DNA from: a virus
Strand: one strand, 5' to 3'
Length of the DNA stretch: 27,309 bases
IMG/VR virus record: IMGVR_UViG_3300024433_000638
Coordinates: 1 to 27,309 of that record
Program-made: the position numbers and the translations under genes
Part shown: piece by piece, positions 2,176 through 23,375 of the stretch
How the letters are laid out: every line of letters starts with the position of its first letter
Position numbering within the stretch: the first letter of the stretch is position 1
Notes under the pieces: model-generated
What the model was told of the DNA's origin: nothing
The model's database searches: none
Seen by the model: only the letters and a program-made list of their open reading frames with translations

Positions 2176-2264
2176 ATCACTTTTTACTTTTATAGAAGCT
2201 AATAATATATGTTGTGTATCTAAATAAGAGTCATTTAAACTATCACACTCTTTTTCCGCACCTT

Positions 2265-8351: not shown

Positions 8352-8897
8352 ATGGGAAAGAAAATTAAAATTTACGAATCAGAAATTAAAAGAGCAACTA
8401 GACGTAAGTTGATGGAAAATTATTTAGATGAAGACTATGAGATGAGAGACACTTATAGTAAAAGAGATTTTAAACCAACACCTAGAGAAAAAGGTATTGA
8501 AGGGGTATTTGGTAAGTATGGTGATGATATGGATCCTGCAGTTATTAGATATATGAGAAAAAATCCAGACGCAATCTTAAGAAGAATGGCGAAACAATAT
8601 CCTGAGATTTATATGAGAAACGCACCAGTACAACCTGATTACAGAGATTATGACGAACCAATAGACGTTAGTGATCAATATGACGAAGAAGGTTACTATA
8701 TTGATGAGGCGGAAGAAACAACCGTTAAACAAACAAAATATACGCCAGATGAAGTAAAAAGAGCAGAACAAGAGGGTGTAGGTATTAATATAGAAAAAAG
8801 TGGTTCAGTTATGTTAAATAAAGATGGTGGTATGACAGTAACTAGTAAGAACGAATCAACAAAAGACTTATTCAAAAAATTCTTAAATAGAAAGTAA
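8352..8897 (+). CDS. Probable internal head protein with capsid-targeting-like N-terminus (181 aa)
   Basis: 181 residues, function unknown. The N-terminus (MGKKIKIYESEIKRATRRKL) is basic and amphipathic and carries two hydrophobic-x-Glu sites, IYE|S (8-11) and LME|N (20-23), like the removable targeting peptides of T4 internal proteins. The remainder is charged and probably partly disordered (Tyr/Asp-rich middle, about 90-125), ending in a basic helix (STKDLFKKFLNRK). It lies in a tightly packed run; its stop overlaps the next ATG (TAATG). Confidence 0.65.
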   Translation: MGKKIKIYESEIKRATRRKLMENYLDEDYEMRDTYSKRDFKPTPREKGIEGVFGKYGDDMDPAVIRYMRKNPDAILRRMAKQYPEIYMRNAPVQPDYRDYDEPIDVSDQYDEEGYYIDEAEETTVKQTKYTPDEVKRAEQEGVGINIEKSGSVMLNKDGGMTVTSKNESTKDLFKKFLNRK

Positions 8898-9223
8898 TGA
8901 AAAAGAAGGACATAATAAAAAAAATAATGACTGAGAATTTTTTAAATAAAAATCAAAGTAAATATTATTTTAATATTAATGAGTCCAAAAAAGAAAAAGA
9001 AAGTCCTATACATAAAAAAAAGTGGGAACGTTGTGTTAAAGATGTAAAAAAACAAAACAAAGAAAGAGGTGAAGACTATAACCCATATGCAGTTTGCACT
9101 GCATCAATAGGTTATGAAGGTTCAATAAAGAAACCACATAGGAGAAAAGAATCTATTAACCCTAAAATGAAAAAAGGTGAGTTAATGGAATACGTAAATT
9201 CTAAAAACAATGAACGAAAATAG
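8897..9223 (+). CDS. Small basic protein with capsid-targeting-like N-terminus (108 aa)
   Basis: 108 residues, strongly basic. The N-terminus MKKKDIIKKIMTENFLNKN contains MTE|N (11-14), and INE|S follows at about 27-30, so a prohead protease could trim it. The middle (about 41-80) has the pattern KKWERCVKDVKKQ...NPYAVCTASIG with two Cys, a short domain I have seen as a recurrent piece in phage proteins but whose role is unknown to me. A basic, internal, DNA-associated head protein is plausible. Its 3' end overlaps the next gene by 14 bases. Confidence 0.65.
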   Translation: MKKKDIIKKIMTENFLNKNQSKYYFNINESKKEKESPIHKKKWERCVKDVKKQNKERGEDYNPYAVCTASIGYEGSIKKPHRRKESINPKMKKGELMEYVNSKNNERK

Positions 9224-9683
9224 AGGTAAGAAATTACATATTGTACCAGAATTAAATAGAAGTGAATTTAGTGTAATTGTAGGTTGGTTAGAAAAACTTA
9301 GGGAAAGTGGTCTTATCAATATGTTTGGTGCGTACCCACTACTTAATTGGACTAAAAAGGATTTACATAGATGGTTATACGGACAAAAAATGGATATTGA
9401 ATCTTTAGAAGAACAAAAAGAAGCTTTAGAGTATGATATAGAAAACGAAGGGGAAGACAGTGGGTTATATCAAAGTGAATTAGATTCATTAGAAGAAAAA
9501 ATAGAAGTCATCAACTATTTACTAGATAAAAAACAAGCAGTTAGAGATGTATTAATCAGAGCCTCTTTAAAAAGAATTGAAAGAACTAATGGTGATCATG
9601 AAACTAGAAATGTTCAAAGGGTATTTGAAAAATTGGCTAATGAGGCATGGAAGATGTGGACATCAGTAGTATATGATTGGTAA
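9210..9683 (+). CDS. Helical protein of unknown function (157 aa)
   Basis: 157 residues starting inside the 3' end of the previous gene (14-base overlap). The N-terminal half has Trp-containing amphipathic helices (FSVIVGWLEKLRESGLINMF, LHRWLYG). The centre (about 60-110) is a charged coiled coil (LEEQKEALEYDIE, SELDSLEEKIEVINYLLDKK), followed by another helix and a Trp-rich C-terminus. There is no protease-type site at the N-terminus, unlike both neighbours. Context suggests a structural or assembly partner; no family is recognised. Confidence 0.65.
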   Translation: MNENRGKKLHIVPELNRSEFSVIVGWLEKLRESGLINMFGAYPLLNWTKKDLHRWLYGQKMDIESLEEQKEALEYDIENEGEDSGLYQSELDSLEEKIEVINYLLDKKQAVRDVLIRASLKRIERTNGDHETRNVQRVFEKLANEAWKMWTSVVYDW

Positions 9684-9700
9684 TATAAAAAAATATTAAA

Positions 9701-11128
9701 ATGAAAAGAAAAAATATTATAAGTGAAGTTACAAAAAGAGTTCTTAGTGAAAAATTAAGAATTAATAGGATTGTAGAAGCGATTGAATATGATCCAGAAC
9801 ATCCCGAAAGAATGAATCCAGATATTGAAGGTAAACTTAGAAGTGGTGAACATATTTTTGGTAAAAGTAAGTCTATGCCTGTGGGTTCTGATTTACAAAA
9901 TTATTCTGAAAAAATGGCTAGTAAAAGATTTAAAGAGATTATTAATAAAGTAAAAAGATATCATGGTATAGATAGAATTAATCCAATGATGATGCAACAG
10001 ATGTTCCAAATAATGAGTGAAGTTAGTCAAATTGAAACTAGACACAAAGACGCATTAGAACAATTGGCAGTAGACATCGTATCAGAGGAGTTTGATATAC
10101 CAGATCAAATGTTAGAAGCAACCCTTTCACCTCCAGGTTCTGATTTAGGTTTTGATAATGAAGACGAAGAAGACGAAGAAGATTATGGTTCTGATTTCGA
10201 CACCCCAAAGGCACCAAAAAGTGCGAAAAGAATGGAGGAGTTAGAGATGGAAGTCGATAAAAGGAGAGTTATAAACGCATTGATGCAAGGTGCTTCTAAA
10301 AAAGGACACTATATTTTTCATATGGTTGCAGATGAATTAGATTCTATTGACCCTAGACTTATGGGATTATATGGTAAACTTATGTCACTCGCAGATTTTC
10401 AGTATTGGATTATTCCTGATAGTACAATGGCAGGTCAAGCTGGTGGTGTAGAAAAAATTGAGTGGAGAAAAGCTGAAGCACCAGAAGATGAGGATGAAGA
10501 AGAAGAAATGGAAAAAGTAGATATCGAAGAAGATGATGAAATTCCAGTTGTAGTTGCAAAGGCATGGATATTCCCATTATTAGTACATGAATTAATTAAA
10601 GGTACGTTAGAATTATCTGCAATCAATTGGGCGGACGGACATTTAGATTTTGAAGAACAAACAGAAGTAATTAAGAAAGCGGATACAGTAGAAGGTGAAA
10701 TATGGGGAATGAGATTAGGTCCTGGTATGTGGGAAAAATTCTTAGATTGTGTAGGTAGTGATAATTACGATATGAAACAATGGTTATTTCAAGAATTAAC
10801 TAAGTTACCAGCGAAACAATTTCATGAATTTATGAAAGAAATTCTAAGTGGTAGTCAAAAGTGTAAAGAAGTTATCCAAACTCTAAAAGATATTCATGAA
10901 GATGAACCATCAGAAGGTTTAGATGATATTTTAGGTGATACAGGATATAATGATATGGATGATATATTAGACAATTTAGGTGGTGAAGTAGAAGAAGATC
11001 CTATGTTAACAGAACCTAAAGAGGTTGATTATTCTGAGATGTCACCTAGAGAAATACAAGATTTAATTGATGACGCATTGGACAACGGTGATTTTGAAAC
11101 CGTTGAGAAACTCCATAAGTATTTATAA
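9701..11128 (+). CDS. Acidic probable internal or core head protein (475 aa)
   Basis: 475 residues, not recognised as a named family. The N-terminus MKRKNIISEVTKRVLSEKL is basic-hydrophobic with LSE|K (15-18) and then IVE|A (about 24-27), resembling a cleavable capsid-targeting peptide. It is followed by helical segments (FKEIINKVKRYHG), an acidic linker (about 150-168), a mixed domain with Trp (about 195-260), a second acidic stretch (about 258-280), a large helical domain (about 285-405) and an acidic C-terminal region ending in a helix (SPREIQDLIDDALDNGDFET). It is the last gene of its transcription unit, followed by a strong terminator. Confidence 0.65.
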   Translation: MKRKNIISEVTKRVLSEKLRINRIVEAIEYDPEHPERMNPDIEGKLRSGEHIFGKSKSMPVGSDLQNYSEKMASKRFKEIINKVKRYHGIDRINPMMMQQMFQIMSEVSQIETRHKDALEQLAVDIVSEEFDIPDQMLEATLSPPGSDLGFDNEDEEDEEDYGSDFDTPKAPKSAKRMEELEMEVDKRRVINALMQGASKKGHYIFHMVADELDSIDPRLMGLYGKLMSLADFQYWIIPDSTMAGQAGGVEKIEWRKAEAPEDEDEEEEMEKVDIEEDDEIPVVVAKAWIFPLLVHELIKGTLELSAINWADGHLDFEEQTEVIKKADTVEGEIWGMRLGPGMWEKFLDCVGSDNYDMKQWLFQELTKLPAKQFHEFMKEILSGSQKCKEVIQTLKDIHEDEPSEGLDDILGDTGYNDMDDILDNLGGEVEEDPMLTEPKEVDYSEMSPREIQDLIDDALDNGDFETVEKLHKYL

Positions 11129-11146
11129 TCTATAAATTTATTATAT

Positions 11147-11176
11147 AAAAAATCCCATCAATAGGTGGGATTTTTT
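11147..11176 (+). terminator. Strong rho-independent terminator after 9701-11128
   Basis: A 13-bp stem (11147-11159 with 11164-11176, one G-U pair) around an AATA loop. The G/C part is CCCATC / GGTGGG, and the A and T tracts make it symmetric, so it could also work on the minus strand. It ends the transcription unit that begins at 5637. Confidence 0.9.
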
Positions 11177-11187
11177 ATTTTAAATCA

Positions 11188-11195
11188 ATATTTAT
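11188..11195 (+). promoter_or_regulatory. ATATTTAT box upstream of 11209
   Basis: ATATTTAT ends 13 bases before the ATG at 11209 and starts 11 bases after the terminator T-run, so this must be the start of a new transcription unit. That makes it one of the best contextual cases for the box being a promoter. Confidence 0.6.
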
Positions 11196-11208
11196 TAATA
11201 AACAAATA

Positions 11209-12315
11209 ATGTTAGAACCACGAGAGATAAATTTATTTAATAAGATAATGAGTAAGTTGTATAAAAAATATGAAGACTCATATCACATACCTGATTTTAT
11301 AACTGAGATAGATGAGTTATTAGGGTCAGATAGTTATTCATATGAGGAGATTATGTTTGGTGTGTTTAATTTTTTTGTTAACGTTGTTGGTGTAGATCCT
11401 TTTGTTGATTATATTGCTGGTTACGAAGGAGAAGGTCTTTTAAGAAATAACGTTGATAATCCTTATAAAATTTTAAATGGTACAGGATGGATAGACAAAT
11501 ATTATACGTTAGACACATTTATTATTAACCCATCTAAATTTAATAAACGTAAAGAACCTAAATCTGTTTATGGTGATATTCAAATGGAAGGGGATAAAAT
11601 ATATTTAATATGTGATAATTGGGAGGAGTTATCTATATTATATAATGATGATGATAGGGATACCGCAGAAAAGATATTGTCAGAGGATTGGTCAGATTTA
11701 TATGGTTGGTTTGATGTAGATTTAATTAATGAAGTGTGGGATAACCTAGATGAAGAATCTTTAAAACACATAAAAGAATATATTAAAGAAAATAATTTTA
11801 TTGGTAGACAGTTTGATGGTGTTCCTGAAAGATATGATGAAGACCCAGATGGGGATGGGTTAAGAGAAGACATGTTATTGGATAATGATTTATTAGGTGA
11901 GTTAATAGAAAATGAAAGTATGTTTGGTAATTTAGCTTTGGAATTAAAGAATTTTTATAGGTGGGCATATGAATCTGCGGCGGAAAGTGAATTAAGTGGT
12001 GATATGATAAAAGAAGTAATTTCAGTTATTGGTTCTAAACCTGAATGGGATATGGTAAAATCAAAAAAAGAAGGAGGTTCTGATAAATACATACTTAAGT
12101 TCGATATTACAGATAAATTTATGGATGTCAATTATGAGTATTTAGAGTGTCAGGGGGAATTTCCACAAGAAAATGAAAGTTATTTTTTAAATGTAATAGA
12201 AGAATTATTAGATTGTGAGAATGAAATGTTACAAACTCCAGATATGGGTTATTTTTATCCCGATCATATAAAAATCGCAGAACATTTAAATGATAACGTA
12301 TTAGGTAATTTATAA
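11209..12315 (+). CDS. Protein of unknown function with an Asp-rich loop (368 aa)
   Basis: 368 residues, acidic, no recognised family. The N-terminal region (about 1-90) is helical with aromatic residues. A central part (about 145-200) has the pattern SDLYGWFDVDLINEVWDNLD and a helix KHIKEYIKE. An Asp-rich stretch EDPDGDGLRED (about 211-221) resembles a calcium-binding loop. The C-terminal part (about 225-368) mixes helices and strands. It has no signal or membrane segment and no targeting-like N-terminus. It is the first gene after a strong terminator and is followed after one base by the next gene, so the two are cotranscribed. Confidence 0.65.
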   Translation: MLEPREINLFNKIMSKLYKKYEDSYHIPDFITEIDELLGSDSYSYEEIMFGVFNFFVNVVGVDPFVDYIAGYEGEGLLRNNVDNPYKILNGTGWIDKYYTLDTFIINPSKFNKRKEPKSVYGDIQMEGDKIYLICDNWEELSILYNDDDRDTAEKILSEDWSDLYGWFDVDLINEVWDNLDEESLKHIKEYIKENNFIGRQFDGVPERYDEDPDGDGLREDMLLDNDLLGELIENESMFGNLALELKNFYRWAYESAAESELSGDMIKEVISVIGSKPEWDMVKSKKEGGSDKYILKFDITDKFMDVNYEYLECQGEFPQENESYFLNVIEELLDCENEMLQTPDMGYFYPDHIKIAEHLNDNVLGNL

Positions 12316-12316
12316 T

Positions 12317-13183
12317 ATGAAGATTAAACTAACAGAGAGTCAATTAAGTAGAATAGTAGAGGATAATTTACATCCTAAAGAAGAACGTTTTCTTAATAAG
12401 TTTTTCGATAGGGTTGAAAATTTAAGTCCTACAGAATCACTAAAAGTTTACTTTAGTGAATATGGTTTTGATGAACGTATGTTTAAACATAGTAAAAGAA
12501 TACGTGATTGGTTTGAAAATACTATTATACCTAAACTTAGTGGTTTGCACATGGATCATTTAGATGAACGTTTAAATGGTATATTAGAAACTTATATAGA
12601 GGAAGAAATGGAAGAGATAGTTGGTAGTGCTGATAATCCATTAGAAAAATATAACTCTTTAAATAAATTAAAAGAGTTACTAGTAGATAAGATTGGAATT
12701 AGGGGTGTTAAATCTAAAATTTTAAGAGAAGTTATTAGTGGTACGATTGATGACGTAGTATCTTACTTATTTGATAAGTATGATCCTAGAGAATCAATTA
12801 GAATTGCATCTAATATTAAAAATAATATGAATTATAGGGATTATTATAATGATGCAGGAAACCTTACTCGTACTGTTAAAGATTTTGCAGAAAAAAATGG
12901 GATTGTTTTATTTGACAAAATGATAGGTGGTTATACTTTTAAAAGGAGGGATGATACTATGATTAGAGATTTAGTAAGTTATATGAATGACACCCCAAAG
13001 AAAACAAAGAGAGGGTTTTTAAATTATATTGGTAGTGAGGATAGACCAGGACAATTTTCTAAGTTTTGGAGTGCCGCAAACGCTGCAGGTATTATACAAA
13101 AAATAGGTGGTGGTAGTAATGTTACATATAAATTAGGTCCTAACTATAATGCTTTCGAAGAAGGTAATTTAGTTGCATTTTAA
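12317..13183 (+). CDS. Unknown protein with capsid-targeting-like N-terminus and possible winged-helix C-terminus (288 aa)
   Basis: 288 residues. It starts MKIKLTESQLSRIVEDNLHP, with LTE|S (5-8) and IVE|D (13-16), again the pattern of a removable capsid-targeting peptide. The body is helical. The last 70 residues (RGFLNYIGSED, FWSAANAAGIIQKIGGG, VTYKLGPNYNAFEEGNL) read as helix, helix, beta-wing and a closing helix, which I associate with small winged-helix domains in phage proteins; DNA or RNA binding is inference. It sits immediately upstream of the terminase gene. Confidence 0.6.
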   Translation: MKIKLTESQLSRIVEDNLHPKEERFLNKFFDRVENLSPTESLKVYFSEYGFDERMFKHSKRIRDWFENTIIPKLSGLHMDHLDERLNGILETYIEEEMEEIVGSADNPLEKYNSLNKLKELLVDKIGIRGVKSKILREVISGTIDDVVSYLFDKYDPRESIRIASNIKNNMNYRDYYNDAGNLTRTVKDFAEKNGIVLFDKMIGGYTFKRRDDTMIRDLVSYMNDTPKKTKRGFLNYIGSEDRPGQFSKFWSAANAAGIIQKIGGGSNVTYKLGPNYNAFEEGNLVAF

Positions 13184-13193
13184 ACATTTAATC

Positions 13194-13201
13194 ATATTTA
13201 T
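13194..13201 (+). promoter_or_regulatory. ATATTTAT box upstream of terL
   Basis: ATATTTAT ends 13 bases before the ATG at 13215, in a 31-base intergenic gap. The start codon context is AATTATGG without a Shine-Dalgarno sequence. Confidence 0.55.
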
Positions 13202-13214
13202 ATAAAAAAGAATT

Positions 13215-15020
13215 ATGGATAGAGGAGAACAATTGAAAATATTTGCTCGTTGTTTGGGAGATCCTATTTATAGTATTGAAACGTTTTTAAAGACATTTGA
13301 TTTAACACAAGAAGGTATGGTACCTTTTAAGTTGTTTTACAAACAAAAAGAGATTATTAAATCATATGAAGAACACAATCGTAATTTAGTAACCAAACCT
13401 CGACAGGCAGGTGTGTCTACAACTACTGCGGCATATATTGCAGTTAGATCTGCATTTGGTGACCCTGACAACCCTTCTAAAGTGTTGATTTTGGCGAACA
13501 AACAGACACTAGCACAAGAGTTCTTAAAAAAAGTTAAAGACTTTTTAGATCAGATACCTTACTGGGTTTGGGGTTTAAATGAGAATAGTGATTATTTAGA
13601 AATAAATTCAAAAGGACACCTTAAATTAAAGTCTAATGGTTGTGAAATTAGAGCACTAGCAACATCTAAAGATGCGTTAAGGGGTTTTACACCAACATTC
13701 TTAGTTATGGATGAAGCAGCCTTTATCGATAATGGTGCAGACGTATTTGGTGCGGCTTTAGCTTCATTAGGTACTGGTGGTAAGATTGCGTTAATATCCA
13801 CCCCTAATGGTATGGACCCTCTATATTATAAAACTTATGACAAATCTAAAACAGGTGATAACAATTTTAACTTAGTAGAAATGAAATGGTATCATGATGT
13901 TAGATACAATAGAAACCTTTATTGGGTTAAGGGTGAAGATGAGGAAAAAGAAGAGATAATATGTGATACGATAGATAGGACTAAGTTAAGGTGGGAATAT
14001 ATGGATAATATATATGAAACTGATGAATCCACAATCGAACATTATGAAATAATGGTAAAAGATGGTTGGAAACCTTTATCCCCTTGGTATGATGAGATGG
14101 CTGCAGATATGGGTGACCCTAAAAAAATCGCACAAGAGCTCGATGTATCATTTATTGGTTCAGGAGGTAATGTTGTAGATGATGAGTATGTTACGTATCA
14201 TGAAGAAAATTTTGTAAAAGATCCTGTATTTGCTTCTGAAGTTGAGAAGAGTATGTGGATTTGGAAAAAACCTGAAGTTGGACATAAATACATTATGGGT
14301 GTTGATGTTAGTAGGGGTGATGGTAAAGATAGTTCTACTATAGTTATATTAGATTTTGAAAATTTAGAACAAGTTGCAGAATTTAAACATAAGTTACCAC
14401 CAGATATATTGGCAGAAATAGTTTATAAATATGGTAATATGTATAATGCATATACTATAGTAGATATTACAGGTGGTATGGGTGTTGCAACAGTTTTAAA
14501 ACTTCTGGAGATGGAATATAAACATCTTCATTATGATGACCCTAAAAGTAGAAAGTTATCCGAAAAGTATGCAAAAACTGTGTATAAACAAGGTGATAAG
14601 GTACCTGGATTTAATGTTGGTAACACTAGATTACAAATGGTTAGTGAATTAGAAGAACATATTAGAGAGAATAAAACTATTATACGTTCACAAAGAATGA
14701 TTTCTGAACTTAAAACTTTTGTTTATAAAGGAGGTAGACCAGATCATATGGAAGGATATCATGATGATATTATTATGGCATATGCAATGGTAATATTTAT
14801 AATACAAACTTCTTTTAAAAAATTAGAACACGTTGAGAAACAAACTAAGGCAATGTTAGACAGTTGGGTAAACACCACAAATAAATCTAATGACAAAATG
14901 TTTAGTGATAAACAACATACAAATCCTTTCTACACTAACACCCCAACATACGAACCAAAACAAGGTAATAATGGTAATAATGATAACGGAGAATACAATT
15001 GGTTATTTGGAATTAAATAG
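13215..15020 (+). CDS. terL: Terminase large subunit (T4 gp17-like)
   Basis: DNA-packaging motor that hydrolyses ATP to pump DNA into the prohead and cuts the concatemer. In 601 residues: the Walker A variant KPRQAGVST (61-69), typical of large terminases; Walker B FLVMDEA (162-168, D166/E167); motif III ISTPNG (194-199); then an RNase H-like nuclease domain with D364 (MGVDVSRG), D417 (IVDITG) and D517/D518 (YHDDII). The length matches gp17. The C-terminus (about 555-601) is Asn-rich and probably disordered. Unlike T4, no tail sheath or tube genes lie between it and the portal gene. No small terminase is evident in the window. Confidence 0.97.
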   Translation: MDRGEQLKIFARCLGDPIYSIETFLKTFDLTQEGMVPFKLFYKQKEIIKSYEEHNRNLVTKPRQAGVSTTTAAYIAVRSAFGDPDNPSKVLILANKQTLAQEFLKKVKDFLDQIPYWVWGLNENSDYLEINSKGHLKLKSNGCEIRALATSKDALRGFTPTFLVMDEAAFIDNGADVFGAALASLGTGGKIALISTPNGMDPLYYKTYDKSKTGDNNFNLVEMKWYHDVRYNRNLYWVKGEDEEKEEIICDTIDRTKLRWEYMDNIYETDESTIEHYEIMVKDGWKPLSPWYDEMAADMGDPKKIAQELDVSFIGSGGNVVDDEYVTYHEENFVKDPVFASEVEKSMWIWKKPEVGHKYIMGVDVSRGDGKDSSTIVILDFENLEQVAEFKHKLPPDILAEIVYKYGNMYNAYTIVDITGGMGVATVLKLLEMEYKHLHYDDPKSRKLSEKYAKTVYKQGDKVPGFNVGNTRLQMVSELEEHIRENKTIIRSQRMISELKTFVYKGGRPDHMEGYHDDIIMAYAMVIFIIQTSFKKLEHVEKQTKAMLDSWVNTTNKSNDKMFSDKQHTNPFYTNTPTYEPKQGNNGNNDNGEYNWLFGIK

Positions 15021-15036
15021 TATTTAGTTTTTCTAT

Positions 15037-15044
15037 ATATTTAT
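15037..15044 (+). promoter_or_regulatory. ATATTTAT box upstream of the portal gene
   Basis: ATATTTAT, 30 bases before the ATG at 15075, in the 54-base gap after terL. The spacing is longer than at most copies. Confidence 0.5.
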
Positions 15045-15074
15045 TATAATAGTAACAAAGTATATAAAAAGAAA

Positions 15075-16985
15075 ATGGCAAGAAAAACAGTATTTCAACA
15101 ATTAAACGACTTATTTGGACCCGAAGTAAAGAGTCAACAAAATAAGTCTAGATATTCTATAAACGATAAAGAACTCCTTAAAACTAAATCTAAGGAAGAA
15201 TATGACTATGAGAAGTTAAAAAGACAACAAGACGCTTATCTAGCTAATCAATGGAAAAAAGTAGATAATGAAATCTACCAACACTCTATATATTATGAAA
15301 CAACTAGATTAGCATCTTATGCGGATTTCGAGGGTATGGAATTTTTTCCTGAAATTGCAGCAGCTTTAGATATAATGATGGAAGAGTCTACAACTTTAAA
15401 TGCAGAAAATAAAGTGTTAAACATTTTTTCTGAAAGTAGAAGGGTAAGGAGAATATTGGAGGATTTATTTTTTAATAGATTAGATATTCATACATCATTA
15501 CCTATGTGGACTAGAAATGTTTGTAAATATGGTGATGACTTTTTATATTTAAATATCGATCCCGATGACGGTATAACTAGCGTAAAACAATTACCTAATA
15601 TTGAAATTAGTAGGAAAGAAAATGCTGGATTTGGTGAAAACTCAATGAATGCAGAAAAAGATAAATTTAACCCTGTTAAGTTTGTGTGGGGACAAAGAGA
15701 TATTGAGTTTAATGCTTGGCAAATTGCACATTTTAGGTTGTTAGGTGACGATAGAAGATTACCTTATGGTACTTCTATGTTAGAAAAAGCTAGAAGAATA
15801 TGGAAACAACTATTACTTTCTGAAGATGCAATGTTAATATATAGAGTTACTAGGGCACCAGAAAGAAGGATATTTAAAATATTTGTGGGTAATATTGATG
15901 AACAAGATGTACCATCCTATGTAAATAAGATTGCAGATAACTTTAAAAGAAGTCCCGTAATTGATCAAAACACAGGACAGATAGATAGTAGGTACAATCA
16001 AATGGCACAAGATCAAGATTATTTTATTCCTGTTAGGGACGCAAGTGCACCATCACCAATAGAGACTTTACCTGGTGCAACTAACCTATCTGAGATTGCA
16101 GATATACAATATTTACAGAAAAAATTATTTACTGCACTTAGAGTACCTAAACCGTTTTTAGGTTTTGAAGAAACTAATGGTGATGGTAAAAACTTAGCGT
16201 TACAAGATATTAGATTTGCTAGGACTATTAATAGGATACAACAGGCAATGTTACAAGAATTAAATAAGTTAGCAATTATTCATTTATATATTTTAGGTTT
16301 GGAGGATGAGTTAGAAAATTTCACTATAACACTTAATAATCCTTCTACACAAGCAGAGATGTTAAAAATAGAACAAACACAATTAAAAGTTACACTTTAT
16401 AAAGACGCAGTTTCTGATGCAGGTAATGGATTTGGGTCTATGTCAATGACAAGGGCGAGAAAAGAAATACTTGGTATGTCTGACGAAGATATAAGAAATG
16501 ATTTAGAACAACAAAGACTAGAGAAAGCGGCAGCGGCTGAAATGGAACAAACTGCAAACATTATTAAGAAAACAGGAATATTCGATAGAGTAGACAAACT
16601 TTATGGTGATTTCTCTACATTAACAGGTAAATCACCCGAAGAAGGTGGAGATGACACTGGTGGTGAAATGTCTGGTTTTGGTGGTGATGCAGGTGGTTTA
16701 GAATCTGCAGCAGATAGTTTAGCTGGTGGTGAAGCATCGGCAGCAGAAACAGAAACCGCAGTAGAGTCAACAAAAGACAAAAAAGATAATCTTTTATTAG
16801 AACAAGAAAAGAGAAAATACGAAGAGAAAGTTAAAAAATATCAAAACATATATTTAAATAGACTTATGGAAAGTTTAGATAAAAATGATAAAGTTTTTAA
16901 CTTAGATGATGTAGAAAAAGATACGGAAATATTAAACTCAAAAATTGGTGATATCACAAAAGAAATTGAGAATTTAACAAAATAG
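15075..16985 (+). CDS. gp20: Portal vertex protein (T4 gp20-like)
   Basis: Dodecameric portal through which DNA enters and leaves the head. The clearest family signature is YRVTRAPERRIFKIFVGNID (about 256-275), the conserved gp20 segment, followed by the paired helix region DNFKRSPVIDQNTGQI, then FIPVRD, TLPGATNLSEIADIQYLQ and RVPKPFLG, all in the same order as in gp20. At 636 residues it is longer than T4 gp20 because of a C-terminal extension (about 500-636) that is Gly/Ala/Glu-rich and then a charged coiled coil. The extension contains AVE|S and LME|S, possible prohead protease sites that are not expected in a classical portal. Confidence 0.95.
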   Translation: MARKTVFQQLNDLFGPEVKSQQNKSRYSINDKELLKTKSKEEYDYEKLKRQQDAYLANQWKKVDNEIYQHSIYYETTRLASYADFEGMEFFPEIAAALDIMMEESTTLNAENKVLNIFSESRRVRRILEDLFFNRLDIHTSLPMWTRNVCKYGDDFLYLNIDPDDGITSVKQLPNIEISRKENAGFGENSMNAEKDKFNPVKFVWGQRDIEFNAWQIAHFRLLGDDRRLPYGTSMLEKARRIWKQLLLSEDAMLIYRVTRAPERRIFKIFVGNIDEQDVPSYVNKIADNFKRSPVIDQNTGQIDSRYNQMAQDQDYFIPVRDASAPSPIETLPGATNLSEIADIQYLQKKLFTALRVPKPFLGFEETNGDGKNLALQDIRFARTINRIQQAMLQELNKLAIIHLYILGLEDELENFTITLNNPSTQAEMLKIEQTQLKVTLYKDAVSDAGNGFGSMSMTRARKEILGMSDEDIRNDLEQQRLEKAAAAEMEQTANIIKKTGIFDRVDKLYGDFSTLTGKSPEEGGDDTGGEMSGFGGDAGGLESAADSLAGGEASAAETETAVESTKDKKDNLLLEQEKRKYEEKVKKYQNIYLNRLMESLDKNDKVFNLDDVEKDTEILNSKIGDITKEIENLTK

Positions 16986-17005
16986 AACTTTTTTATAAAT
17001 TTAAG

Positions 17006-17013
17006 ATATTTAT
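17006..17013 (+). promoter_or_regulatory. ATATTTAT box upstream of 17028
   Basis: ATATTTAT ends 14 bases before the ATG at 17028, with a six-T run about 15 bases further upstream. Confidence 0.55.
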
Positions 17014-17027
17014 TTATTAAAAAGAAC

Positions 17028-17792
17028 ATGATCAATTTCGGCAACATAAAAGATACCTTTAAAAATTTAGTTATTGAGTCTACAATTAGAAAAGACAATA
17101 AGGGTAAAAAACTATTTTCTAAGTTTTTAAAAACAATCAAAGAAAACCAAACATTAAAAGATCAATACCTAATCTATAGTAATTTACAAAATACTAAACT
17201 TGATGACGGTGTTGAGGCTAGGGAATTTGTTAAGGAGAACATTGAACTTCTTAAAACATTAAATGAAACTCACATTAAGAAAGGTAATGAGTTTTTCCTT
17301 AAACTACTCAAAGGTAATAAAATAGTAAAAGAAAATCAAGAATTTTATAATAAAGTATCTTATTTAGTTAACACTGAAAAGACACCTTCTAACATTAAAA
17401 AGATTAATGAGTCAATTAATTATATTATTAGACTTATGTTAGAAAAAGAAGAAGTAGAAGAAGTTGTCACAGAAAGTATTGATTTACCACCTAGTGTCTT
17501 AACAAAGTTGGCGGTAAATAAATTCAATTCAAAATACTCAGACATTACAGAATCAGAAAAAGAAATAATTAAGACAGTCCTTAATGGTAGTAATGAAGAT
17601 AAAGAAGAAACATTTAATAAACTAAAAAGAAAGTGTATTGACACTATCGATAATAAATTAAATGAGTCTTCTGATTTAGATTTAAAAGATAAACTTTTAA
17701 AAGTTAAAGATAAATTACTAAACACTAATTTTAGTTTAGACAATTTTAATTCGGATATAGGTAAGATTTATGATTTAAATGAATCTATATAA
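17028..17792 (+). CDS. Probable prohead core protein in the gene 67/68 position
   Basis: 254 residues, helical, Lys/Glu/Asn-rich, no membrane segment. It lies between portal and prohead protease, the place of genes 67 and 68 in T4, whose products are prohead core proteins chopped by gp21. Seven hydrophobic-x-Glu sites are each followed by Ser or Thr: VIE|S (15-18), LNE|T (78-81), INE|S (126-129), VTE|S (147-150), ITE|S (173-176), LNE|S (211-214) and LNE|S (250-253). Complete cleavage would reduce it to peptides. No sequence resemblance to gp67 or gp68 is obvious, so the role is inferred from position and sites. A structured RNA region and terminator follow. Confidence 0.65.
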   Translation: MINFGNIKDTFKNLVIESTIRKDNKGKKLFSKFLKTIKENQTLKDQYLIYSNLQNTKLDDGVEAREFVKENIELLKTLNETHIKKGNEFFLKLLKGNKIVKENQEFYNKVSYLVNTEKTPSNIKKINESINYIIRLMLEKEEVEEVVTESIDLPPSVLTKLAVNKFNSKYSDITESEKEIIKTVLNGSNEDKEETFNKLKRKCIDTIDNKLNESSDLDLKDKLLKVKDKLLNTNFSLDNFNSDIGKIYDLNESI

Positions 17793-17808
17793 TAATATTA
17801 ATTAGAAA

Positions 17809-17841
17809 AACGGATTAGGACCGTTATTGTCTACGGACAAT
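17809..17841 (+). ncRNA. Two abutting hairpins of unknown role before the terminator
   Basis: Hairpin 1 is AACGG (17809-17813), loop ATTAGGA, CCGTT (17821-17825). Hairpin 2 begins on the very next base: ATTGTC (17826-17831), loop TACG, GACAAT (17836-17841), giving C(UACG)G, one of the exceptionally stable UNCG tetraloops. They could stack end to end and stand six bases before a terminator hairpin. Whether this is a processed 3' end, a small RNA or a protein-binding site cannot be told from the sequence. No tRNA or known riboswitch fits. Confidence 0.45.
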
Positions 17842-17847
17842 GTATTA

Positions 17848-17880
17848 CCCACTAAAGTTCGCTACTATAGTGGGTTTTTT
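17848..17880 (+). terminator. Rho-independent terminator after 17028-17792
   Basis: CCCACTA (17848-17854) pairs with TAGTGGG (17868-17874) around a 13-base loop and is followed by six T residues. It separates the core-protein gene from the promoter of the next gene. Confidence 0.85.
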
Positions 17881-17892
17881 CTTGACTAAAAT

Positions 17893-17921
17893 TTGACATT
17901 TCACGTTTAAATTTGTATTAT
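17893..17921 (+). promoter_or_regulatory. Possible sigma-70-like promoter upstream of 17970
   Basis: TTGACA (17893-17898), 17 bases, TATTAT (17916-17921). TAAATTTG (17908-17915) also matches the Bacteroidetes -7 form TAnnTTTG, but then the nearest upstream TTG (17882-17884) is 23 bases away, outside the usual spacing. A promoter is expected here because a terminator lies immediately upstream and no ATATTTAT box is present. Confidence 0.45.
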
Positions 17922-17969
17922 TATAATATACAAACTTTAAAAATAACAAAAAAATGAAAGAAATGATTA

Positions 17970-18407
17970 ATGAAATTAGGAAAAGAAATCAAATTAGATT
18001 TATTAGACAACTACAAAACTAAAATTGGGACAGTTAATAACAAAGAATCAAAAAGTTTATACATCAACTTATGTGCGTGGGGACAATTAAGTAAATTAGA
18101 TGAAAACTTAAATTATGATTACTATTTACGTAACGTAAGAAAAAAAATAAAACAAAAATTGAATAACTCCTTAAACAAGGATTTATTCCACAACCATAAG
18201 TACATAGTAGATTTAGATATGAGAACTTCTGGATTATCTGTAGAAAAAAGAAGTTTTATGAGTTGTGAGATAACATTATTCCAAAAGAAGTATCTACCTT
18301 TAAATAAACCTAGAATTGTAGATAATACTAAAGAGATTATCAAAGACGTTGTAACTGACTGTTTGGAAAACAATTCTATTTTCACTTTCCATAGAACTAA
18401 AAAGTAA
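17970..18407 (+). CDS. Protein of unknown function (145 aa)
   Basis: 145 residues, basic, not recognised. N-terminal strands (KEIKLDLLDNY), Cys-Trp segment (YINLCAWGQLSKLD), basic helix (YYLRNVRKKIKQKLNNSL), strands (HKYIVDLDMR, CEITLFQKKY) and a C-terminal helix (TKEIIKDVVTDCLE). The mixed alpha/beta pattern suggests a soluble enzyme-like or regulatory protein rather than a fibre or scaffold. It has none of the protease-type sites frequent in its neighbours and is preceded by its own terminator-promoter pair, so it may be expressed differently from the surrounding head genes. The start is ATG 17970; ATGs at 17954 and 17963 belong to another frame. Confidence 0.7.
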   Translation: MKLGKEIKLDLLDNYKTKIGTVNNKESKSLYINLCAWGQLSKLDENLNYDYYLRNVRKKIKQKLNNSLNKDLFHNHKYIVDLDMRTSGLSVEKRSFMSCEITLFQKKYLPLNKPRIVDNTKEIIKDVVTDCLENNSIFTFHRTKK

Positions 18408-18425
18408 TTTTTTTAACATAGTGAT

Positions 18426-18433
18426 ATATTTAT
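18426..18433 (+). promoter_or_regulatory. ATATTTAT box upstream of the prohead protease gene
   Basis: ATATTTAT ends 20 bases before the ATG at 18454, in the 46-base gap after the 145-residue gene, with a seven-T run about 14 bases upstream. Confidence 0.55.
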
Positions 18434-18453
18434 AATTAAAGTATATCATTATT

Positions 18454-19143
18454 ATGGAAATATTAAAAAAGAACGAGATAAAGAAGAAAGGTATTCTAAT
18501 CGAATATGATGCAGGATACATTTCTCCAAAAGATAACCGACACTTTATTAGTGAAATGACAAAACTATCAAAAGGGGAACCTATTATAGAGGAACCTTTG
18601 ATAGTTTATGCGGTTATGCAGAAATACGGGGTGGAAAACAGAAATGAAAGAGTATATCCTGAAGCTTTACTTAGAAGAGAAGCAGAAAACTATCTTAAAC
18701 TTATTAAAGAAAAAAGAGCGTTAGGTGAAGCAGATCATCCAGAATCGTCTATCGTTGCAGTAAGTAGGATTTCACATAATGTTGTAGACTTATGGTGGGA
18801 AGGTAATGTACTTATGGGTAAACTAGAAATCATTATGTCACCAGGATTCGTAAATCAAGGAATCATATCTTGTGAAGGTGACAGAGTGGCAAATTATTTA
18901 AGAAAAGGTTTAAAGATTGGTGTATCATCTAGAGGTGTAGGTTCTTTAGAAAAAGAAGGTGGTAAAAATATTGTACAAGAAGATTTTGAATTAATTTGTT
19001 GGGATATTGTTACATCACCATCTACTCCAGGATCTTGGATATATAGTGAGGAACCTTCTACAGAACAACAGATGTCAGAATCTAAGACTAAAAAAGAAGA
19101 TACATTACTTAAAGACAATCTTAATAATTTTCTATTAGATTAA
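18454..19143 (+). CDS. gp21: Prohead core protease (T4 gp21-like)
   Basis: Serine protease that degrades the scaffold and trims the capsid protein during head maturation. In 229 residues, the catalytic His is in GEADHPE (H95) and the catalytic Ser in VSSRGVG (S158 or S159), with ICWDIVTSPSTPG (181-193) forming the conserved Asp/Pro-Ser segment of this family. The NRNERVYP segment (62-69) is another family signature. A potential autocleavage site MSE|S (207-210) lies before a charged C-terminal tail, consistent with gp21, which processes itself. Order protease-scaffold-capsid is the same as T4 21-22-23. Confidence 0.95.
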   Translation: MEILKKNEIKKKGILIEYDAGYISPKDNRHFISEMTKLSKGEPIIEEPLIVYAVMQKYGVENRNERVYPEALLRREAENYLKLIKEKRALGEADHPESSIVAVSRISHNVVDLWWEGNVLMGKLEIIMSPGFVNQGIISCEGDRVANYLRKGLKIGVSSRGVGSLEKEGGKNIVQEDFELICWDIVTSPSTPGSWIYSEEPSTEQQMSESKTKKEDTLLKDNLNNFLLD

Positions 19144-19172
19144 TAAAAAAACACACTTTTTAGATTTATTGC

Positions 19173-19180
19173 ATATTTAT
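19173..19180 (+). promoter_or_regulatory. ATATTTAT box upstream of the scaffold gene
   Basis: ATATTTAT 58 bases before the ATG at 19239, the largest spacing among the copies. The extra space holds the AATGCATT double palindrome (19187-19204). No box is seen before the capsid gene, so this one may serve both genes. Confidence 0.5.
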
Positions 19181-19186
19181 TAATTA

Positions 19187-19204
19187 AATGCATTGTAATG
19201 CATT
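19187..19204. repeat. Paired palindrome AATGCATT-GT-AATGCATT
   Basis: Two copies of the self-complementary octamer AATGCATT (19187-19194 and 19197-19204), two bases apart, in the leader region between the presumed promoter box and the scaffold start. It could be an operator for a dimeric protein or, in RNA, a hairpin with a tiny loop in the leader of the scaffold-capsid mRNA. No comparable element precedes other genes here. Confidence 0.6.
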
Positions 19205-19238
19205 ATTAATAATAATATTTTAAAAAAATAAAATTAAA

Positions 19239-20624
19239 ATGGCTGAAAAAAAGAAATCAATCATCGAAGAGGCTTTACTAGAAGCAAAGTCTTTAGAAGA
19301 TGCCTTAAAAGCCAACACGAAAGAAATGCTTGCGGCACATATGTCCAAGGAATTTGAAAGTATCGTTGAGTCGTCTTTAAAAGAGAAAGACGAAGAAGTC
19401 AAAGAAGAAGAAACTGAAGAAGTTTCTGAACAAATGGATGACGATGCTATTGAAGGGTCTGATGATGAAAAAGAAGAAGTAGTTGACTTAGATGTTGATG
19501 AAGATGATGATTCTGATGAAGATGAAATGGAAGACATGGAGTTAGATTTAGATGTAGTCGATTCTGATGAAGATGAAGTTGATGACGTTGAACTTGATTT
19601 GGATACCGAACTAGACTTAGATGCTGGTGAAGGTGAAGAAGATATGGGAGATGTTGAAATGGATTTAGAATTACCTATGGATATGGAAATGGGAGGAGAA
19701 GAAGTAATGGACTTAACAGATGCGTCTGATGACGAAGTTATTAAAGTATTTAAAAAACTCTCTGACGATGATGAAGTAGAAGTAGTAAAAGATGGTGACG
19801 CAATTCATTTAACAGATAACGAAACTGGTGCAGAGTATTACATTAAAGAATCTATGGATGAAATGGAAGAAATGATGAACGAAAAAGAGTATTGTGCTGA
19901 AGGCGATTGTGGTGGAATGGGTGAAACCATTTACGAAATCGAAATGGATGAAGATTCTGACATCGCTGAAATGATGAAAGAAATGGATGACATGGATGAC
20001 ATGGATGAAGGACATTACGAAGAAGGTTATCATATGAAAGAAGAGGACATGGAAGAAGGTGCTTACATTGATGAGGAGGAAGAGAAAATAGAAGAAGATA
20101 GACTACAAAGACACAGAAAGTTCGCTGGTAAACAAAGATACAGTGGAGCTAAAGTCGGTAGAAGAGACGAATCTAGAAAATCTCGTAAACCTCTAATCAA
20201 TAGAAAACCAAAATCATCTACAGTTTCTGAAAATAAGATAATGAAAGATTACAGAGAGTTGAAGTCTAAAAACGAAGAGTATAAGAAAGCACTCAATGTA
20301 TTCAAAGACAAACTCAATGAGGTGGCTTTGTTCAACACTAATTTAGCGTATGTGAATAGACTTTTCACTGAGCATTCAACAACCAAAAAGGAAAAAATGG
20401 ATATCCTTAAAAGGTTTGACAATGCTGAGACCATTAAAGAGTCTAAAAACATTTACAAAACAGTTAAAACTGAGTTGGATAACGTACAACCAATCAATGA
20501 GTCTGTCGAAAGAAAAGTTAATAAGACTATAGAGTCTTCAAAGTCGACAAATCTAAATGAATCTACTGCATATGTAGATCCACAGATTACGGCAATTAAA
20601 GATTTAATGAGAAGAATCTCATAA
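19239..20624 (+). CDS. Acidic prohead scaffolding protein (T4 gp22 position)
   Basis: 461 residues directly between protease and capsid genes, where T4 has gene 22. Helical N-terminus (1-48, IIEEALLEAKSLEDALKANT); very acidic low-complexity region (about 50-160, Asp/Glu runs); a small domain (about 160-205); a second acidic Met-rich region (about 205-285) with a CAEGDC pair; a basic segment (about 288-327); then a coiled-coil C-terminal half (about 330-461). Candidate cleavage sites include IVE|S (42-45), IKE|S (399-402), INE|S (419-422) and LNE|S (439-442), as expected for a scaffold destroyed at maturation. Identification rests on position and composition, not on sequence likeness to gp22. 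Confidence 0.85.
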   Translation: MAEKKKSIIEEALLEAKSLEDALKANTKEMLAAHMSKEFESIVESSLKEKDEEVKEEETEEVSEQMDDDAIEGSDDEKEEVVDLDVDEDDDSDEDEMEDMELDLDVVDSDEDEVDDVELDLDTELDLDAGEGEEDMGDVEMDLELPMDMEMGGEEVMDLTDASDDEVIKVFKKLSDDDEVEVVKDGDAIHLTDNETGAEYYIKESMDEMEEMMNEKEYCAEGDCGGMGETIYEIEMDEDSDIAEMMKEMDDMDDMDEGHYEEGYHMKEEDMEEGAYIDEEEEKIEEDRLQRHRKFAGKQRYSGAKVGRRDESRKSRKPLINRKPKSSTVSENKIMKDYRELKSKNEEYKKALNVFKDKLNEVALFNTNLAYVNRLFTEHSTTKKEKMDILKRFDNAETIKESKNIYKTVKTELDNVQPINESVERKVNKTIESSKSTNLNESTAYVDPQITAIKDLMRRIS

Positions 20625-20657
20625 AAAATAATAACAAAAAAATAAAAAACTCAAAAA

Positions 20658-22418
20658 ATGGGACATTTATTAAATTCAGGTGAAGTCGGAAATATCGGAC
20701 TAGAACACCTAAAACAAATTAGATCTAAAACTATTTCTAAGTGGAACAAACTTGGTTTCCTAGAAGGTTTAAAAGGTCACGTAAAAGAGAACATCGCACA
20801 GTTGTATGAAAACCAAGCGTCTTCACTACTTAACGAATCTACAGATGCAGGTTCGTCAGGTTCATTCGAGACAGTGGTATTTCCAATTGTACGAAGAGTA
20901 TTCTCAAAATTATTGGCGAATGATATCGTATCGGTACAAGCGATGAACATGCCAATTGGAAAATTATTCTTTTTTGTACCTAAAACATCATCTACACAAG
21001 TTCCTTTGAACGGTAAAGATGGTGGTGCTAACGGATCACTACCAGAATGTGTTATTTCTGGTTGTAGTTCAGCAACTACAATCACTCCATTCTTAGAGAA
21101 GTCACTATATGACTTATTCTATAATGATGGTTTATTTGACGCATCTAAAGGAAAACAACTCGTTACTGCAGGTGGAGAGGATTCTTTCTATGGTGTTGTA
21201 CTTAACGCTAACGGAGAAAAAGTTCCTACTGCATTAACTGCACAACCTTTAGCATCTGATGGTTCATTCAGAAGTGTTAAAATGTGTGTAACTGGATTCT
21301 CTTCTACTAACGCAGGTAGATTAACAGGACCAGACGGAAATGAAATGGATACTGAAACTTTCTTAGCTTCTTTATCAGTAGTTTCTACACCAGCAATCGT
21401 TGATGGTGACGGTAATGAAATTATTGCAGCAGGTGGTACAGTACCATTCAGAGTAGTAACACAGAAATACGGAAGAGGTATCGTTGATTACGGTGATATC
21501 TGTACTCCTGATGGATGTTTACTAATCGAATTGGATCTTACACACCCAGCTTGTATCGATTGTTCTTCTGCTAACTTTGACGGATATGTTGGAGCAGCAA
21601 CAGGAACTTCATTTACAGGTTTGACTGTAGCTTGGAGACGATACGAATCATTAGAATTCGCAACTGAAATGGGTGAGGTATCATTCGAACTTGATGAGGT
21701 TGTGGTTTCTGTAACGGAAAGAAAACTAAGAGCTACTTGGTCACCAGAATTGGCACAAGACGTTAGTGCATTCCATAACATTGATGCGGAAGCAGAACTT
21801 ACGGCATTATTGTCTGAGCAAGTTGCAGCGGAAATCGATAGAGAGATCCTAAGAGACTTGAGAGTTGGTTCAGCTTGGCAATTGAGATGGGATTACAACG
21901 GATGGAAAAGAGCAAATAACGGTGGTGGATTCAACGCTTACACTCAAAAAGAGTGGAATCAGACGTTGATTACTAAAGTAAACCAAATTTCAGCTCAGAT
22001 TCATAAATCAACACTTAGAGGTGGTGCAAACTTTGTCGTAGTTTCGTCTGAAGTTTCAGCTATCTTTGATGATTTGGAGTACTTCCACGTATCAAACGCT
22101 AATCCAGAGCAGGATCAGTACAATATGGGAATTGAGAAAATAGGTTCATTAGGTGGAAGATACACTGTGTATCGTGATCCATATGCACCAGCTAACTCAA
22201 TTATCATTGGACATAAAGGTAAGTCATTGTTGGACACTGGGTACATTTACGCACCTTACGTACCACTACAATTGACACCTACGTTACAAAATCCATTCAA
22301 CTTCTCACCAACGAAGGGGATTATGACAAGATACGCTAAGAAAATGGTTAATAACCGTTTCTATGGTGTTATCACTGTCGATGGTGTTCAAACGTTTGAC
22401 ATTAACGAATTGAGATAA
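20658..22418 (+). CDS. gp23: Major capsid protein (T4 gp23-like, HK97 fold)
   Basis: 586 residues. gp23-like segments in order: VFPIVRRVFSKLLANDIVSV (74-93), AEAELTALLSEQVAAEIDRE (377-396), ANFVVVSSEVSAIF (457-470) and the C-terminal YIYAPYVPLQLTP / GIMTRYAKK (529-562). Residues 57-61, LLNE|S, mark a probable prohead-protease cut after E60, close to the known E65 cut in T4 gp23, removing a helical delta domain. Between about 110 and 335 lies an insertion with seven Cys (131, 136, 210, 282, 287, 299, 302). Base composition is visibly less AT-rich than the neighbours, as expected for a very highly expressed gene. A strong terminator follows. Confidence 0.96.
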   Translation: MGHLLNSGEVGNIGLEHLKQIRSKTISKWNKLGFLEGLKGHVKENIAQLYENQASSLLNESTDAGSSGSFETVVFPIVRRVFSKLLANDIVSVQAMNMPIGKLFFFVPKTSSTQVPLNGKDGGANGSLPECVISGCSSATTITPFLEKSLYDLFYNDGLFDASKGKQLVTAGGEDSFYGVVLNANGEKVPTALTAQPLASDGSFRSVKMCVTGFSSTNAGRLTGPDGNEMDTETFLASLSVVSTPAIVDGDGNEIIAAGGTVPFRVVTQKYGRGIVDYGDICTPDGCLLIELDLTHPACIDCSSANFDGYVGAATGTSFTGLTVAWRRYESLEFATEMGEVSFELDEVVVSVTERKLRATWSPELAQDVSAFHNIDAEAELTALLSEQVAAEIDREILRDLRVGSAWQLRWDYNGWKRANNGGGFNAYTQKEWNQTLITKVNQISAQIHKSTLRGGANFVVVSSEVSAIFDDLEYFHVSNANPEQDQYNMGIEKIGSLGGRYTVYRDPYAPANSIIIGHKGKSLLDTGYIYAPYVPLQLTPTLQNPFNFSPTKGIMTRYAKKMVNNRFYGVITVDGVQTFDINELR

Positions 22419-22437
22419 TCAATTTTATATATGTTAC

Positions 22438-22468
22438 AAAAAGGGTAGATTTTTTCTACCCTTTTTTT
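22438..22468 (+). terminator. Strong rho-independent terminator after the capsid gene
   Basis: A stem of at least 12 bp (AAAAAGGGTAGA, 22438-22449, with TCTACCC plus T-run, 22455-22466) around a five-T loop, ending in seven T residues. It closes the head transcription unit. Confidence 0.92.
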
Positions 22469-22478
22469 GTTTTATAAC

Positions 22479-22486
22479 ATATTTAT
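22479..22486 (+). promoter_or_regulatory. ATATTTAT box upstream of 22506
   Basis: ATATTTAT ends 19 bases before the ATG at 22506 and begins 10 bases after the capsid terminator, again a box directly following a terminator, where a new promoter is needed. Confidence 0.6.
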
Positions 22487-22505
22487 TAATATATTAGCAT
22501 TCCAT

Positions 22506-23375
22506 ATGAGAATTAAAAAGAAACACGTACTATTAGAATCATTGTTAATCGATGTAACTAACGAATTTACTCCAGTAGAGAAAAAGATATTTAAGATGTT
22601 AAAAAAACATTATGGAAATCCAATAAAAACTGAAGAAGGTAAAAAAGAATACTCTCAATGGGATGTCGGTGCTTGGTTGATAGAAACTTTAGATTTACCA
22701 TATCAAGAAGCTTATACTTTAGCTAAAACATATTTTTGGCATTATGAAAAACTATTTGGTGAGGCACCCACATTGAGAAAAAAAGTAAGTTTAGCGTATT
22801 TGTTTCATGAACACTTTAGAGATTTAATGGATAAAGTTAGGGAATCGTATAATGATCAACCTATTGGTAATGTTGTTATAGATTTTGATAGAGATTCTGG
22901 TTTTGAAAGTAATAGAAATATACTTTTTTGGCCAGGATTTAAAGGTTTTACTTTATATATTGCTATGGAGATGGGAGTGATACGATCCTCAGATGGTTTG
23001 AGTGACGCATATGCATATAGTAGACAAACTGATCCTAGACAAATTATAGTTAAGTCGAAATTTTATCCTATCACAAAAGATAAACAAAAAAAAGACGGAT
23101 ATATTAGTGATAAAGATTGGAATGAAGAAATTGATGAAGAAGAGTTTTTAGTTGAGGTTTTTGTAGAGGTTGGTAGAAATGATTCTATAGAACCATCAGA
23201 AAAGATTGAAGACTTTATGTCATTTTATGTTCCGTACCCTAATCCTTTAAATTATACTAATTATAAAAATCTTGTTGAGGGTATCACTGGTGATGTAATA
23301 AAAAAATTAGGTATGACAACGTTTAAACTACATCCTGAAGTTGGTAGTATTAATGTAAATAATCAACCTGATTAG
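22506..23375 (+). CDS. Unknown protein with capsid-targeting-like N-terminus (289 aa)
   Basis: The ATG at 22506 is chosen rather than the in-frame TTG at 22467, because the TTG lies in the terminator T-run and upstream of the promoter box. From this start the protein begins MRIKKKHVLLESLLID, basic and then hydrophobic with LLE|S (9-12), like the other suspected internal proteins. The body (289 residues) has helices with Trp and Tyr (WDVGAWLIETLDLPYQEAY), a strand-rich middle and an acidic patch (NEEIDEEEFLVEVFVEVG). No family is recognised. Its last 26 bases overlap the end of the convergent tail gene. Confidence 0.65.
   Translation: MRIKKKHVLLESLLIDVTNEFTPVEKKIFKMLKKHYGNPIKTEEGKKEYSQWDVGAWLIETLDLPYQEAYTLAKTYFWHYEKLFGEAPTLRKKVSLAYLFHEHFRDLMDKVRESYNDQPIGNVVIDFDRDSGFESNRNILFWPGFKGFTLYIAMEMGVIRSSDGLSDAYAYSRQTDPRQIIVKSKFYPITKDKQKKDGYISDKDWNEEIDEEEFLVEVFVEVGRNDSIEPSEKIEDFMSFYVPYPNPLNYTNYKNLVEGITGDVIKKLGMTTFKLHPEVGSINVNNQPD

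Follow-up and report, generated by a model that had tools for sequence, protein, structure and literature searches.

In phage T4, the internal proteins IPI, IPII, and IPIII and the Alt protein carry a short N-terminal capsid-targeting sequence (CTS) that is removed by the protease gp21 (PMC9026906, PMC3012670). Ten IPIII residues are enough for targeting, and fused foreign proteins are packaged and delivered (PMC9026906, PMC3012670). The internal proteins of T-even phages are diverse proteins with only the CTS in common (PMC3012670), and Alt is an ejected ADP-ribosyltransferase (PMC9026906). Lindsay Black proposed that the CTS provides an evolutionary route by which T4-like phages load varied proteins (PMC9026906). 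Phage-injected proteins are known for few phages because purified virions are needed.

Two other systems are comparable. In phages phiKZ and SPN3US, inner-head and ejection proteins carry N-terminal propeptides that are cut after Glu, and near-identical N termini occur on the diverged paralogues gp53 and gp54 (PMC5694885). However, these propeptides are mostly longer than 100 aa, occur on paralogues, and end at an A-x-E site. A multisubunit virion RNA polymerase is another mark of this type. Polyvalent proteins (Iyer et al. 2017, PMC5512222) include effector domains (i.e., ADP-ribosyltransferase [ART] and GNAT) whose delivery together with the DNA has been proposed, but they are long multidomain chains.

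Here, we analyzed IMGVR_UViG_3300024433_000638, a 27,309-base virus contig with a G+C content of 30.6% (the window; i.e., the entire public entry). Its candidate peptides (11 to 31 aa, [ILV]-x-E sites, unrelated bodies) fall outside the phiKZ/SPN3US type. Like the polyvalent proteins, the tagged and tag-like proteins described below include ART and GNAT domains, but they are single short proteins with a common, putatively removable tag. The likeness to T4 is closer: short N-terminal peptides ending in hydrophobic-x-Glu stand on unrelated bodies; S77 protease, scaffold, and major capsid protein (MCP) are encoded together; and an ADP-ribosyltransferase is found among the tag-like proteins, as Alt is in T4. 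The N terminus of T4 gp24 (MAKINELLRE↓S; an arrow marks a known or putative cleavage point) also resembles the LLRE↓S/N tags found here.

Head genes and candidate propeptides of the window

As judged from sequence matches, the window carries a T4-type head module (terminase, portal, S77 protease, scaffold-like protein, and MCP), in agreement with a preliminary description of this DNA that placed a gp21-like protease and a head block near the genes of interest. That description listed five ORFs (8352, 8897, 9701, 12317, and 22506; genes are named by their start positions) as sharing a short N terminus with a hydrophobic-x-Glu site; all five ORFs and the residues quoted for them are present at the positions reported. 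The features of the window are as follows.

4785..5582, plus strand: nucleotidyltransferase-like protein, N terminus MDIKKITEQEVSDIIKKE↓D (PF01909, E = 2.7e-4; phrog_36119)
5980..7950, plus strand: 656-aa acidic protein whose basic N-terminal peptide ends in TLNE31↓S (in relatives, TLTE↓S)
8352..8897, plus strand: 181-aa protein, basic N-terminal peptide MGKKIKIYESEIKRATRRKLME↓N, candidate propeptide with a net charge of +5
8897..9683, plus strand: gene for a protein of 262 aa in relatives, N terminus MKKKDIIKKIMTE↓N (MKKSQIVKKILLE↓K in L012)
9701..11128, plus strand: 475-aa protein, putative propeptide MKRKNIISEVTKRVLSEKLRINRIVE26↓A, then a conserved body
12317..13183, plus strand: 288-aa protein, LTES-type tag MKIKLTESQLSRIVE↓D
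Starts at 13215: terminase, part of the T4-type head module
Starts at 15075: portal, part of the T4-type head module
17028..17792, plus strand: 254-aa protein between portal and protease, N terminus MINFGNIKDTFKNLVIE17↓S
18454..19143, plus strand: S77 (gp21-like) prohead protease (PF03420, E = 1.6e-25 at 18595-19053; phrog_207, E = 5e-40)
19239..20624, plus strand: scaffold/core-like acidic protein between protease and MCP, N terminus ...SIIEE↓ALLE↓AK (N-terminal alignment)
20658..22418, plus strand: MCP (phrog_138, E = 2e-65), putative maturation site LLNE60↓S aligned with T4 gp23 E65↓A
22506..23375, plus strand: 289-aa protein, N terminus MRIKKKHVLLE↓S, site LLE11↓S (L024 homologue, MIIKKKHVLLE↓S)

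In a search of GenBank phage proteins with the window protease as the query, Flavobacterium phage immuto and Microcystis phage Mel-JY01 were among the closest. At the start of the window (79-2543), a Clp/HSP100-like ATPase is encoded; just upstream, on the minus strand, a separate 92-aa ORF resembles its N-domain.

The hydrophobic-x-Glu sites quoted for the five genes are IYE9↓S and LME22↓N in 8352, MTE13↓N in 8897, LSE17↓K and IVE26↓A in 9701, LTE7↓S and IVE15↓D in 12317, and the single site of 22506 given above. A hydrophobic-x-Glu string within residues 1 to 25 is found in 15 of the 30 window genes, so the five genes would not stand out on this rule alone. Across phages with an S77 protease, 49.8% of N termini contain such a string compared with 37.1% of internal 25-mers, and the rule, being near chance, was abandoned as a criterion. 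The observation is therefore only partly confirmed: the set of five lacks significance under the hydrophobic-x-Glu rule, but the sharper statistics given below show a real signal among N termini; past the peptide, the protein bodies share nothing obvious, as had been described.

The list of five also changes. In L002, L003, L006, and L011, the pair 8897-9223 and 9210-9683 is a single intact gene, which a frameshift splits in the window; the frameshift may be real or an assembly error. Genes 5980 and 17028 had been missed, and 4785 is a weaker addition: its N terminus bears a weak LTES-like resemblance and is linked to tagged proteins in the ungapped N-terminal comparison. The weakest of the original five is 22506, with two homologues only, although its assigned start is backed by the homologue L024:11384.

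Conservation of the peptides differs among the genes. The first 27 residues of 12317 are unchanged in nine relatives, which share as little as 56% identity with the window protein over the full length; 8 of these 27 codons vary among relatives, all synonymously. Among five relatives, 22 of the first 27 codons of 8352 are identical, 3 vary only synonymously, and 2 vary nonsynonymously. In the 8897 family, the tag is kept while the linker length varies. In the 9701 family, E26 is invariant in eight homologues, the upstream peptides differ in both sequence and length, and P1' is A, S, or N. In the 17028 family, a phi-x-E↓[SAG] site is retained in relatives of the window's clade (one with D), while the other clade has no such site. 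In an AlphaFold model of 12317, residues 1 to 20 have a pLDDT of about 50 and an ordered helical body begins at residue 20; the N-terminal peptide is thus predicted to be disordered ahead of a folded body. The fold of 12317 had no PDB match at an E value of 0.001 or better, and the confidence of the predicted structure of 9701 was too low for use. Mature proteins of five of the eight window candidates have pI values of 4.3 to 5.1, and only the 8897 product is clearly basic.

A recurrent N-terminal tag on unrelated proteins

ORFs were called in about 100 loci of S77 phages, and the proteins were clustered by their bodies (i.e., residues 31 onward). N-terminal 32-mers were compared between proteins with unrelated bodies using ungapped 14-residue matches with BLOSUM62 scores of at least 40. 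Such matches were found for 45 pairs of N termini, compared with 0 to 1 pair of internal segments and 5 pairs of C termini (80,601 pairs each). Secretion signals account for some of the 45 pairs; as the cause of the similarity, signal peptides were rejected, since they do not fit the consensus given below. The best-connected N termini had the forms MKKLVRLTEGDLRKIIKESV.., MKSIVKKILREEL.., and MKIKLTESQLSRIVED.., of which MKIKLTESQLSRIVED is that of window gene 12317. EM motif discovery on all N termini overfitted and generalized poorly.

The consensus of this tag (here, the LTES tag) is MKK(I/V)(I/V)RLTESDLxRIVKRVIxE, followed by Q, S, N, or another residue. When viral contigs were scanned with a DNA pattern for LTESDLxxI(V/I), 83 of the 88 matches lay at a protein N terminus. 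The preliminary description had proposed a search of relatives for the N-terminal pattern; the search did find a conserved tag, on 108 proteins in 74 body clusters unrelated by BLAST (scan plus four large genomes). Glu occupies the fixed end position (P1) in 63 of 70 tags, and P3 is I, V, L, or M in all 70. Most of the P1 exceptions represent a variant that is one helix turn longer and also terminates in Glu (MKRRIRLTESDLHRIVNRSVKRVLxE). The amphipathicity of the tag is strong: its helical moment of 0.75 is attained by 0.9% of shuffles.

In four phage genomes held out from training, a tag matrix built on other contigs matched 24 of 1,053 ORF N termini and 1 of 6,373 internal windows; one 296-kb genome (G003) contributed 12 of the 24. 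By regular expression, a 335-kb genome (G008) contains 23 tagged ORFs, with matches in 3 of 1,507 internal windows, and several tagged ORFs are found in a 42.8-kb relative of the window (G044, the contig of L004). In each of these three genomes, the same peptide stands on otherwise unrelated proteins. Within the 27-kb window, the LTES form is found on 12317 only, which was matched by an LTES-tag HMM built from other phages (E = 8.3e-5). T4-like and giant phages with this tag on many unrelated proteins form a wide group, to which the window phage belongs. Between 17028 and the protease gene, L002, L004, and L009 carry a 90-aa gene with a perfect LTES tag, starting MKIKKNGKIVNLTE(S/T)DLR(R/K)IVKRTLNE; the gene is absent from the window, where the gap (17792-17970) is only 178 bases.

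Across approximately 257 Gb of prokaryote genomes, the pattern gave 25 matches, of which 1 was a real tag. This tag is on a 130-kb contig of a Prevotellaceae MAG (L504), probably a rumen phage contig; no S77 protease was detected in that MAG. In a short-peptide tblastn search of isolated phages, the LTES tag gave only a weak match, in one 484-kb uncultured phage, and the tags of immuto matched nothing outside immuto. The immuto genome (L017, L020) has a second recurrent N terminus (FDLKKFLVENKLTxNSKLL) in four places, and MKKSQLRxIIKE-type starts occur in the block upstream of its terminase.

The LTES consensus (MKKIIRLTESDLTRIVKRVIxE) is unrelated to the T4 CTS MKTYQEFIAE and usually longer (about 22 to 25 aa). 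Up to about 23 proteins are tagged per genome here, compared with a handful in T4, and the bodies are mostly small and acidic or without a known domain. Moreover, T4 internal proteins are small and basic, whereas the mature window proteins are mostly acidic. The earlier statement that T4 internal proteins are loaded by exactly this kind of peptide was therefore too strong. That diverse T-even proteins carry a CTS was known (PMC3012670), and a wider role had been suggested (PMC9026906). In the open literature, to which the search was confined, neither the LTES tag nor its scale was found.

Cleavage-site preference and link with the S77 protease

In all 38 MCPs that were aligned with T4 gp23, [LIM][LIV]xE↓ falls exactly at the T4 cleavage position, E65. 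A five-residue matrix trained on these MCP sites alone was scored on the N-terminal 35-mers of other proteins. In S77 phages, 34 of 401 N termini were matched compared with 75 of 2,021 internal segments (Fisher p = 8e-5), and the excess lies in residues 1 to 20. No enrichment was found in podovirus and crAss-like controls lacking S77 (5/118 versus 27/681; p = 0.52). In a positive control, the matrix was trained with T4 left out; it found sites in six of the nine gp21 substrates (IPI, gp68, gp21, gp22, gp23, and gp24) and missed gp67 and IPIII, and the ninth substrate, Alt, lies outside the T4 stretch that was scored. It flagged 3 of 41 other T4 genes, one of them at a site without Glu and another being gp2. 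T4 gp2 (L480) is an injected DNA-end protector whose N-terminal IINE9↓S scores like a gp21 site. The match between the LTES tag and the MCP sites is only partial, since P1' is often Q or N in the tag but A or S in the MCPs. The 24 kb adjoining the head genes of immuto is richer in MCP-like N-terminal sites (6/26 versus 8/152; p = 0.007).

All 12 contigs of at least 100 kb that bear the tag encode the S77 protease, as do 17 of the 23 of at least 60 kb. The six S77-less contigs of the latter set are probably fragments, because they also lack a T4-like MCP. Among random large control contigs, S77 was found in 10 of 18 (five of them near-identical), and two S77-negative control fragments carry the tag. 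Simple co-occurrence of S77 and the tag is weak evidence, because S77 is common in large AT-rich contigs; this inflated measure was set aside, and the association is informative only through the contigs of at least 100 kb and the fragments without an MCP.

Interpretation of the peptides

The shared tag, its confinement to N termini, the co-occurring protease, the common cleavage-site preference, and the invariant junction Glu are direct observations. They are best explained, in our view with good probability, if the peptides are T4-like capsid-targeting propeptides of unrelated sequence that are removed by the S77 protease. We infer core binding, cleavage, presence in virions, and ejection as follows. 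Tagged proteins would bind the prohead scaffold or core through a short amphipathic basic helix during head assembly; the S77 protease would cut after the Glu of [I/L/V]-x-E (i.e., the same kind of site as on the MCP); and the mature protein would be freed inside the DNA-filled head and stay with the DNA. Some of the freed proteins would probably be ejected with the DNA as early-acting effectors, and other processed proteins may be head-core components. We also lean toward the view that a single transferable LTES tag has moved between unrelated genes and that, in T4-like and giant phages, it marks a large set of virion-packaged proteins (up to about 25 per genome).

The strong amphipathicity of the tag and its conservation as a whole, beyond the Glu alone, would suit helices that dock proteins in the prohead or on head or core proteins and stay uncut, with Glu as part of the docking surface. 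We regard such uncut docking as unlikely, since the junction Glu of the 9701 family never varies whereas the rest of the peptide does, the site preference matches that of MCP cleavage sites, and the terminal Glu is kept in tags that differ in length by one helix turn. Membrane binding by an amphipathic basic helix is also conceivable, and the tagged genes of giant phages are scattered across the genome, beyond the vicinity of the head genes, as might be expected if the tag served to localize proteins at the host membrane, in a phage compartment, or on a host protein. A localization signal unrelated to the head is nevertheless very improbable given the close link with S77 and T4-like head genes and the density of MCP-like sites near the head genes of immuto, and it would leave the common site preference unexplained. 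That short hydrophobic-x-Glu strings arose by chance in Glu-rich proteins is suggested by their presence in half of the window genes, but it is extremely unlikely in view of the N-terminal pair excess, the confinement of the tag, the held-out and MCP matrices, the 63 of 70 tags ending in Glu, and the invariant E26; chance is refuted for 12317 and 9701, while 22506 and 4785, taken singly, may still be due to chance.

A different question is what the putatively capsid-targeted proteins are. The protease may simply process 17028, 9701, 5980, and 19239 as ordinary structural or head-core proteins that are not ejected; this possibility has only slightly less than an even chance and is compatible with the capsid-targeting explanation. 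Gene 17028 sits between the portal and protease genes, the place of gp67/68 in T4, and is kept throughout its clade; its product is more probably part of the head core than cargo. Genes 9701 and 5980 encode large acidic proteins that close relatives retain. This reading is inapplicable to the LTES-tagged proteins, which are variable, numerous in each genome, and mostly small. Of the preliminary interpretation, T4-type capsid targeting and Glu-specific maturation by a gp21-like protease thus gain support from the MCP-derived matrix, the invariant junction Glu, the tag on 74 unrelated bodies, and the S77 link. The suggestion that all five proteins are ejected cargo does not: the same protease may equally well process 17028, and perhaps also 9701 and 5980, as head-core or structural proteins.

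Bodies of the tagged proteins

If the capsid-targeting explanation holds, the packaged and possibly injected proteins of T4-like and giant phages could be listed from their genomes, which would open up the injected protein sets of uncultured giant phages and allow functions (e.g., early takeover and counter-defense) to be predicted for dozens of "hypothetical proteins" per genome. The tag would also offer a ready-made signal for loading proteins of choice into phage heads, and Black's proposal for the CTS (PMC9026906) becomes directly testable with it. Most of the tagged proteins have no known domain. By Pfam, some tagged or tag-like proteins match ADP-ribosyltransferase (ART-PolyVal, with a score under the curated cut-off), and other matches are to GNAT, NUDIX, NT5C, cytidylyltransferase, LysM, and alpha/beta-hydrolase. 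Where the match is to NT5C or cytidylyltransferase, the domain begins within about 25 to 30 residues of the N terminus, right after the peptide. A tagged protein of L547 begins MNITESDLNIIVKKVIQE.., and its onward sequence (YYRG...FVSKDKALAMDYG) resembles that of an ADP-ribosyltransferase, making it a candidate member of this class.
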